Shown here one piece after another: positions 30,401-33,400 of a stretch of 64,000 nt of DNA. Each line of letters begins with the position of its first letter. Position 1 is the first letter of the stretch. The position numbers and the translations under genes are program-made. The notes under the pieces were generated by a model. It saw only the letters and a program-made list of their open reading frames with translations, was not told the DNA's origin and searched no databases. Source of the stretch: Siniperca chuatsi (Eukaryota > Chordata > Actinopteri > Centrarchiformes > Sinipercidae); NCBI RefSeq assembly GCF_020085105.1, contig NC_058051.1, forward strand, positions 6,126,501 to 6,190,500, given 5' to 3'.

Positions 30401-33400
30401 AGATGACTATTTTATGCTTCTTAATCTGTTGTGACAATGAATGATGATATACTTTACTGAAGACACTTGACAGACTGCTCCCAAAAACCATAGCAGTAAT
30501 TGAGACGACTGTTTCATCATCAATTGTGCAGCCCTACAACTCACTGAATGAGTGATATAAAGTTTGAGTCCATGGTAAGGGTTAATTGGTGATCAAATAC
30601 CATGCTGTCAACTAAAGAGTAAAGGAGGCAATCACTGGACCAGATGCCTTTGTAAAGACTAACCTTTTCTACAACTTTACCCTTGAAAAATAAGAGAAAC
30701 ATACACCCATTAGACGGCAAGGATAGTCTACATCACATTAGTAAATACAGTAGTCTTTGCACTGCATTATTTCTCGACTGTTGACTTTTAGATTGTTCAT
30801 CAAGGTCTTGGAATCAAGTAATTATTAGACTAAATGTTAGTGAAATGTATAGACTACTGGTATATGTTTGTACAATTTGCGTAGAATACGAGCATCTTTA
30901 TAATTTATTTGAGAGACTATTGATGTGGCTTCATGCAGAAGGTCTAAGTCCTACCTTGTCTTTTTTCTATCAACAAGGAGCATGAACAGGAGGAAGTCAT
31001 TGGAGGAGAAAGCAAAGAGGAAAATTAGAACTAAAACAAAAATTGGGGAAAAGGGGTAGATAATATGGATTGGGGTGGACTAGGAGGCTATTGTTTTTGA
31101 TGTAGTGGGGGTATTTTCATGTACAATAATATTTGTCATAATTGTGCACTATGGTACCTTCTCCTTGCCCTTGGTGGGACTGGCATTCTTGTTGGGGGTT
31201 GCCACAACTTCCTTCTCCACCACACCCACAAAGCGCTGCTCAGACTGAGTATGGAAGGACACTGTGCCCTTGGGCAGCTTCTTGATACGCACTGCATGGT
31301 TCCTCTGAGCTGACAGCATATCCTGACAATGACAGGACATTTACTTTAGTTAGTAGTCATTAACAAATAATAATCAGAATGTGCCTGCTTAAGAAATAAT
31401 ACAGAATACATACTTTTGTGAAAAGCTTATAAACAGGACCTACAGGCACAACAGTGAACTCCACTTCATCTGAGATGTGCAGTTGGCTCTCCTCTAGAAC
31501 TTCACTGAAGTGAAAGAACATCCTGGCATCCCGATCCACACACTTAATGAAACCAAAGCCATCACGTATAGCTGCAATCACCCCCTAGAAGATAATTGGG
31601 TGACAGGAATAGGTATTCCCTTCAGTTCAATGAATGTGGAAGCCCCTTCCAATCTGTCATTTCTTTCAACTCTACAGTACATAATATAAATTGACCACTT
31701 CAGGAAAATCATATTGATTTTTTCTTTAGCAATACTCACCATCTCACGGGCCTCCTTGGTGAAGTTGAAGGTGTCTGGGAGGACGTCAATGTTTGTAGCC
31801 CTCTCCAGCTTGTCTCTGCGGTCGGTGGAGATGTTGAACTGTATGTGGTCTCCCTCCAAAAGGGTCACCTTGGATTTTGTGTCCTTCTCGCCAAACGGCA
31901 GTTCCTTGTCAGTGAAACCAATTCGGGCACTGATTCGACCTGGGAGAGGGTCATTCTGTGGAAGTAGGAAGGAAAGAGTTGTATTCTTGGTAGGTGGATA
32001 ACGATTCCATGCTTGCTTTTACAGCCAAAGCCTCTTCAAATACAAAAGAATTTAACTTGGCAGACTTGTAATCTACTTGCCTGGTTTTTGGTGGGAACCT
32101 TAGGAATGACCTTGACGACAGTGCCTTCGAACTGCTCAATGCTGATATCCTCAAAGATGACTGTTCCTTGGGGGAGCAGCCTCACATCTGTGGCTACTTC
32201 TTTACCCTATGGCCACAAGAACATAATATATAAACCATGTTATATCCACATTCAGGCAGGTCATTAGAGTTACAGGTATCAAAGTTGGTCAAAAGTGGAT
32301 CTATGCAAAATTTAAAAGTTAGTCGAGTATTTCTGGATGGTAAAGTTGAAAAGCTTGACAAGACCTACATTTCTGTCTTTGATGGTGAACTCTACATCAT
32401 CTCCAGCCTGTAGAGCCTCCAGATCACCCTTAAACTCACTGTAGTGAAAGAAGATCTCCTTCACCACATCGGCCCTCTCAATGAATCCAAAGGCCTCCTG
32501 AAAGACAACACGTGGTTCAACATAACATCAACCTGCTACTCAAAATTGGAGATCCAGGCCCTGACTCAAGAGTTACATTTGTAAAGTATTTTAGTCACTA
32601 TAGCATCATATTTACCTGTATGGTGGAAATCATGTATGGAACCAGATACATACTAGCATTACCTAACATATCTAAAACAGATCTGCTTGTTACAAATTCC
32701 ACCCCTTGTGCAAACAAGCTAGTAGTTAGGTTGGTAAATCCTGGGTTGACAGGGAACGTGTATGGCTACTTTTCTCAACTGTTTTGGATAGAGCCCTTAC
32801 CTTTGTAGCACACACCACACCCTGGCACCTCATTTGCTTTTTCTTCACAAGTTGAATATTACGAGCACTGACAGCACCAGTACTGAAATACAAGAGTGAT
32901 AACTATAAAATTCAAGGGCAAGCTGGGAATTAAGACAATACTGACATGGTGTAAAGACTTACTGCTTGTTGGTCTCCATGTAAAAGCTGACTTTGTCACC
33001 TGTGTCCAGGTGGATATTGCCCTCCACATCATCAGGAGTGTAGGTAAGGTAGAACACTTCCTGTGGGAAGTCACACCAGTGTCAAAACTTTGTTAATAGG
33101 GTTTTAGACACACCTATTAACCCTACTTTTATTAAAAGTCACTTCTCTTACCCCATTTCTTTCATAACAAACACTGCCAGTGGGCACCTGGCCAGGTGCA
33201 GACTTTCCATCCAAGTGCACTGGGATTGCAGAGACAACCTGCAGAAAAAAGGAGGAAATTGCAGGAGGAGGCTATTAACACACTGCTTTGCCAATCGTAT
33301 GTTTAATATTCATTGTAATTACATAGCCCAATTAAAATATTTCTGGACATGTGATGGATGAAATGACTGAATTTCAAATGTCACAGTAACAAGTATATCA

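Follow-up and report, generated by a model that had tools for sequence, protein, structure and literature searches.

Two candidate tandem microexons in a phase-0 intron of csde1 in the fish Siniperca chuatsi

According to Li et al. (2015; PMC4317164), the hexamer TGCATG is enriched in the sequence that follows alternative micro-exons, where RBFOX is proposed to act as an enhancer. For Srrm4 microexons in zebrafish, a layout of upstream UGC and CU-rich sequence has been described (PMC12626420). Isoform variation of CSDE1 itself is known from mammals, where it reportedly affects the N-terminal region of the protein, with no information currently available on the roles of the isoforms according to the same source (PMC11005786). 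A heart-enriched 5′ exon of 46 aa (...KKQKRTPTYQRS), hNE-10, has been found in mouse (PMC4111849), and a myocyte-specific unskipped form is described in mammals (PMC4736020). The muscle-type CSDE1 event of mammals would lie at the 5′ end, where hNE-10 is located (PMC4111849) and where, as we infer from exon number and primers, two other reports would also place it (PMC2764345; PMC4736020). Skipping of mouse CSDE1 exon 6 around zygotic genome activation, described as a loss of CSD2, concerns a different place (PMC11216927).

Here, we describe two short segments in an intron of a fish csde1 gene which we tentatively read as alternative cassette microexons. In rainbow trout Iso-Seq data, CSDE1 is among the top muscle-specific splicing patterns, the event being unspecified in the text (PMC8321248). 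Because the muscle-type event of mammals lies at the 5′ end, the trout pattern more probably corresponds to the N-terminal muscle exon than to these segments, and we did not count it in their favour.

The csde1 gene and its intronic segments

The window, a stretch of 64,000 nt of the S. chuatsi genome (assembly of 719 Mb in 65 contigs), contains a csde1 gene for which we built a coding model by hand (Table 1). Human CSDE1, which we take to be 798 aa long, aligns with the model from end to end, both proteins having the same length, as the initial annotation had noted for the form that skips both segments. Pfam searches of the model matched PF23456 (CSDE1 CSD domain) in five stretches, CSD in five and SUZ-C in one, besides five weaker overlapping families. 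The model introns are GT-AG with a single exception, a GC-AG intron (GCAAGT at 32080-32075) that directly follows the exon at 32206-32081.

Table 1. Features of the csde1 locus, in window coordinates
Feature	Position	Strand	Description
csde1 coding model	27426..34659	(-)	18 exons, hand-built; 798 aa without the candidate microexons, no internal stops
Exon K (upstream)	31158..31322	(-)	165 nt, phase 0/0, ends ...SPTKGKEK
CU-rich tract upstream of candidate microexon 1	30967..31020	(-)	UGC at -48 and -16; branch-like CAATGACT, A at -31
Candidate microexon 1	30955..30966	(-)	12 nt, KKDK; acceptor 7.27, donor 8.23
TGCATG (RBFOX motif)	30932..30937	(-)	17 nt past the donor of candidate microexon 1, starting at intron base 18
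Pyrimidine tract before candidate microexon 2	30682..30720	(-)	branch-like GTCTAATG, A at -29
Candidate microexon 2	30664..30681	(-)	18 nt, GKVVEK; acceptor 9.52, donor 7.80
Exon L (downstream)	29800..29907	(-)	108 nt, phase 0/0, through ...VGDK, continues ncCSD6

Several features around the gene can be noted in passing. The first modelled coding exon, at 34659-34461, is a single unbroken block of 199 nt. At the same position the human gene presumably has a separately skippable exon of 31 aa; if this layout is right, the mammalian isoform lacking the 31 aa could not arise in the same way here. Further upstream, a 5′ coding exon (MERGSS...GSKKHKRTPLYQRS; coding part 35489-35331, with a possible acceptor before 35540) is in frame with the csde1 start. 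This exon (...KKHKRTPLYQRS) is likely to be the fish homologue of mouse hNE-10, and TGCATG occurs downstream of it at 35097 and 35021. On the opposite strand, 3′ of csde1, an open frame of 454 codons from stop to stop extends over 23406-24770 (+); its part 23409-24770 had no Pfam match at E 0.01.

Exons K and L are separated by an AT-rich, phase-0 intron of 1250 nt (AAG/gtacca at 31158, ctgtag/GAAGCT at 29907). Its donor, AAG/GTACCA (AAGGTACCA at 31160-31152), scores 3.39, the second lowest of the 17 modelled csde1 donors. Two human CSDE1 splice variants, c.1330-1 and c.1603-1 (PMC6760934), have positions compatible with the first bases of the human counterparts of exons K and M. The span from c.1330 to c.1603 is 273 nt, equal to the 165+108 nt of the fish exons, and these matching positions suggest that the human reference form is free of an insert at this site. 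As mammalian isoforms are reported to vary N-terminally, the segments would represent fish isoforms or overlooked ones, and this difference in location counts against reading them as microexons (PMC11005786).

The initial annotation had pointed to two phase-0 segments of 12 and 18 nt within the K-L intron, and their coordinates proved exact. Both are bounded by AG and GT (ttgatag/AAAAAAGACAAG/gtagga at 30966-30955; tttttcaag/GGTAAAGTTGTAGAAAAG/gttagt at 30681-30664), both are multiples of three and both are open. In these respects they agree with alternative coding microexons (3-27 nt, AG/GT flanks, frame-preserving, stop-free). That each segment is precisely delimited by an acceptor and a donor, in frame and open is a first argument for two microexons. 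Their richness in Lys and Glu, also remarked upon initially, is present but partly forced, since both have AAG as their last three bases, a 3′ end favoured by the donor consensus MAG/GT. The idea that the segments arose as partial duplicates of the upstream exon was discarded, local alignments being no better than those of shuffled sequences (27% and 43% of 1000 shuffles equalled the score). A protein search of the fish's own genome for a paralogue or retrocopy that could have captured an inclusion isoform (E up to 0.01, five of five candidates scored) returned only three exons of this csde1. One scan each of a genomic-contig and a viral-contig collection gave no relatives, as expected for a fish gene.

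The site had been assigned to a linker near domain 6. This placement has to be revised: the PF23456 match covers residues 426-509 of the model and the insertion point follows residue 451, so that the inserts fall inside the non-canonical cold-shock domain 6 (ncCSD6) and not in an inter-domain linker. In fly Unr, an extended beta1-beta2 loop is found in the non-canonical domains only, being flexible in ncCSD2 and having weak or absent density in ncCSD4 and ncCSD6; Hollmann et al. regard it as a possible protein-protein platform, while a general domain-domain interface cannot be concluded (PMC7383231). An alignment of the model with fly Unr CSD456 (6y6e) shows the region surrounding the insertion site to be seven residues shorter in fly, which suggests that the inserts probably lie in the flexible extended beta1-beta2 loop of ncCSD6. 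Adding both inserts lowers the score of the PF23456 match only modestly, from 81.4 to 72.5 bits, and the ncCSD6 fold therefore probably tolerates them. Both the location in a stretch of variable length between fish and fly and the survival of the domain match argue for the two microexons.

Splice-site strength and chance expectation

Splice sites were scored with a vertebrate splice matrix. Among the 74 GTs scanned in the intron and at its edge, the donors of the 12-nt and 18-nt segments rank first and second, both above the donor of exon K. Among the 77 AGs scanned, the acceptor of the 18-nt segment ranks first and that of the 12-nt segment fifth, the true acceptor of exon L being third. These ranks speak for two microexons. 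Compared with the rest of the gene, the 12-nt segment has an acceptor equal to or better than 5 of the 18 modelled csde1 acceptors and a donor equal to or better than 11 of the 17 modelled donors; the corresponding counts for the 18-nt segment are 12 of 18 and 10 of 17.

Other results of the scoring point in the opposite direction. The acceptor of the 18-nt segment has a disfavoured A at -3, which we counted against the two microexons. With a matrix trained on the junctions of csde1 itself, the segment acceptors reach 4.5 and 3.8, as against 4.3-17.8 for the real sites, which are here self-scored; one thus stands just above the weakest real site and the other below it. At the thresholds set by the segments, this matrix returned 12 other candidates in 523,000 strand-bases, and these extra candidates, like the low acceptor scores, weaken the case. 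The gene kdm1a, known for a 12-nt microexon encoding DTVK, was intended as a positive control. In the fish kdm1a intron (2084 nt) we found no DTVK segment and no candidate at the csde1 thresholds, only one weaker candidate of 6 nt (8.44/5.46). This intron serves as a negative example only and leaves the splice scoring without a positive control, a further point that we held against the two microexons.

To estimate how often such segments arise by chance, we defined a candidate as a phase-0, open segment of 3-30 nt, with thresholds set post hoc, either to the lowest site scores of the two segments or to their summed score. On both strands of the window there are four candidates under the first threshold and nine under the second, two of them being the present segments in either case. 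No candidate was found at the segments' own thresholds in the other csde1 introns (3587 bp, all taken as phase 0), and the K-L intron contains no further phase-0 open candidate of 3-30 nt even with score floors of 3 and 3. Twenty other stretches of 10 kb (395,000 strand-bases; three on the contig of the window, two of these three adjoining it) gave eight candidates and no same-strand pair within 1250 nt. The implied expectation is 0.024 candidates per 1250 nt, with a probability of two or more of 2.8e-4. Shuffling the K-L intron 2000 times produced one candidate in 20 cases and two in 1. Of 3000 shuffles, 21 contained a candidate whose summed score reached that of the best segment, as did 12 of 416 real stretches of 1250 nt; the corresponding counts for the second-best score were 3 shuffles and 1 real stretch.

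The pair is thus rare for one named intron, and its rarity, together with the lack of other candidates in this and the other csde1 introns, favours two microexons. It is not rare across the whole scanned window, which comprises about 102 stretches of 1250 nt on its two strands and in which roughly 0.03-0.25 chance pairs would be expected, a figure that counts against them. The earlier argument that chance would seldom give such a pair therefore stands for a single intron but not for a window-wide scan, in which the look-elsewhere effect is large.

It is quite possible that both segments are pseudo-exons, two splice-site pairs which lie at in-frame distances in an AT-rich intron by coincidence and are both left unspliced. 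From the frequencies in real stretches, many such pairs are to be expected genome-wide, and both acceptors are poor under the csde1-trained matrix. In the accessible text of the literature searched (few subscription papers, no preprints; PMC8670310 and PMC10835012 included), CSDE1 is not linked to a microexon. Against a chance origin stand the rarity of the pair in shuffles of this very intron and the fact that, of the 74 GTs scanned, the two with the highest donor scores are those of the segments themselves.

Regulatory context and further readings

The most specific regulatory motif that we found is the TGCATG downstream of the 12-nt segment. Its proximity supports the two microexons, in view of the enrichment of this hexamer next to alternative micro-exons (Li et al., 2015; PMC4317164). 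It would be compatible with regulation by RBFOX and thereby with use in brain, heart or skeletal muscle, a neural role being one option among these. When the downstream intron was shuffled 5000 times, TGCATG occurred within 60 nt in 1% of cases. The hexamer is common in csde1, with eight sense copies in 8.2 kb, and a plain density estimate puts the chance nearer 5-6%; this frequency counts against the two microexons. No TGCATG is present within 150 nt downstream of the 18-nt segment, where only GCATG occurs, at +59. As to upstream signals, the 18-nt segment has a single UGC, at -38, within the last 40 nt of the preceding intron. A UGC within 40 nt upstream is also found at 7 of the 18 modelled csde1 acceptors and is thus not discriminating.

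This asymmetry between the segments bears on the idea that only one of them is real, either the 12-nt segment with its TGCATG or the 18-nt segment with the best acceptor, the other being a chance pseudo-exon. In 12 of the 416 real stretches there is a candidate that equals or surpasses the better segment, so that a real exon next to a fortuitous one would not be absurd, and only the 12-nt segment has the hexamer within 150 nt. On the other hand, the 18-nt segment combines the strongest acceptor of the intron with a branch-like sequence at -29. We consider this mixed origin unlikely.

It is much less probable still that one or both segments are constitutive in this fish, the longer protein being its normal form. 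Both segment donors (8.23 and 7.80) do surpass that of the upstream exon (3.39), but the 798 aa of the skip form equal the human length and the two flanking exons sum to the human 273 nt. Moreover, in the absence of enhancers, exons as short as 12-18 nt are as a rule poorly recognized. A recursive-splicing (ratchet) site at 30681 (CAAG/G/GTAAAG) in place of an exon is scarcely credible: a donor scoring 5.20 does begin one base past the acceptor, but AG and GT do not abut. With this offset of 1 nt, re-splicing would retain a single base and disrupt the frame. The intron measures only 1250 nt, and the 18-nt segment ends in a stronger donor (7.80).

A possible loop switch and its relation to known systems

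We tentatively favour two tandem alternative cassette microexons in the phase-0 intron of csde1. The phase, length and splice signals noted initially, as well as the 798-aa skip form, are retained in this interpretation; the linker placement and the rarity of the pair once the look-elsewhere effect is considered are not. From splicing onward, the steps that we propose are conditional. Skipping of both exons would give the 798-aa form of human length, and inclusion of the 12-nt and/or the 18-nt exon would give proteins of 802, 804 or 808 aa, with KKDK and/or GKVVEK added inside ncCSD6. The 12-nt exon would be too short for efficient exon definition and would be skipped by default. RBFOX bound at the UGCAUG just downstream could promote its inclusion in neurons and/or striated muscle, and SRRM3/4 acting at the upstream UGC and CU tract might also do so. 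The additional basic residues would change a flexible loop on the protein surface, hence a partner contact or a modification site, and would leave the RNA-contacting canonical domains untouched.

A more doubtful proposal is that, in the brain and/or muscle of fish, the ncCSD6 loop is adjusted in length and charge by two tandem microexons under independent regulation, which would give four loop variants. If true, it would reveal a splicing-controlled protein-contact switch in an autism-linked RNA-binding protein, at a place where mammalian CSDE1 has not been reported to vary. If the exons are used, a natural frame-neutral variant confined to ncCSD6 would provide a clean tool for asking what the loop does. 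If they are unused, the case would illustrate the frequency with which convincing-looking pairs of microexons appear fortuitously in the genome of a fish.

The two segments resemble the SRRM3/SRRM4-dependent, often neural microexons (3-27 nt) in size, in frame, in the short charged peptides that they encode and in their location in a probably flexible protein region. The resemblance extends, for the 12-nt segment, to the upstream sequence, where a CU-rich stretch and two UGCs, at -16 and -48, recall the Srrm4 layout of zebrafish (PMC12626420), although UGC is not specific in csde1. They differ in lying in tandem within one intron. The RBFOX-enhanced micro-exons (PMC4317164) share with the 12-nt segment a TGCATG close downstream; in csde1, however, the hexamer is found within 150 nt downstream of one segment out of two. 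Finally, the heart and muscle 5′ exon of mammals, hNE-10, offers a precedent for tissue-specific isoform variation of the same gene (PMC4111849). That exon is N-terminal, whereas the candidate microexons would act inside ncCSD6, about 4.4 kb downstream of the likely fish homologue.
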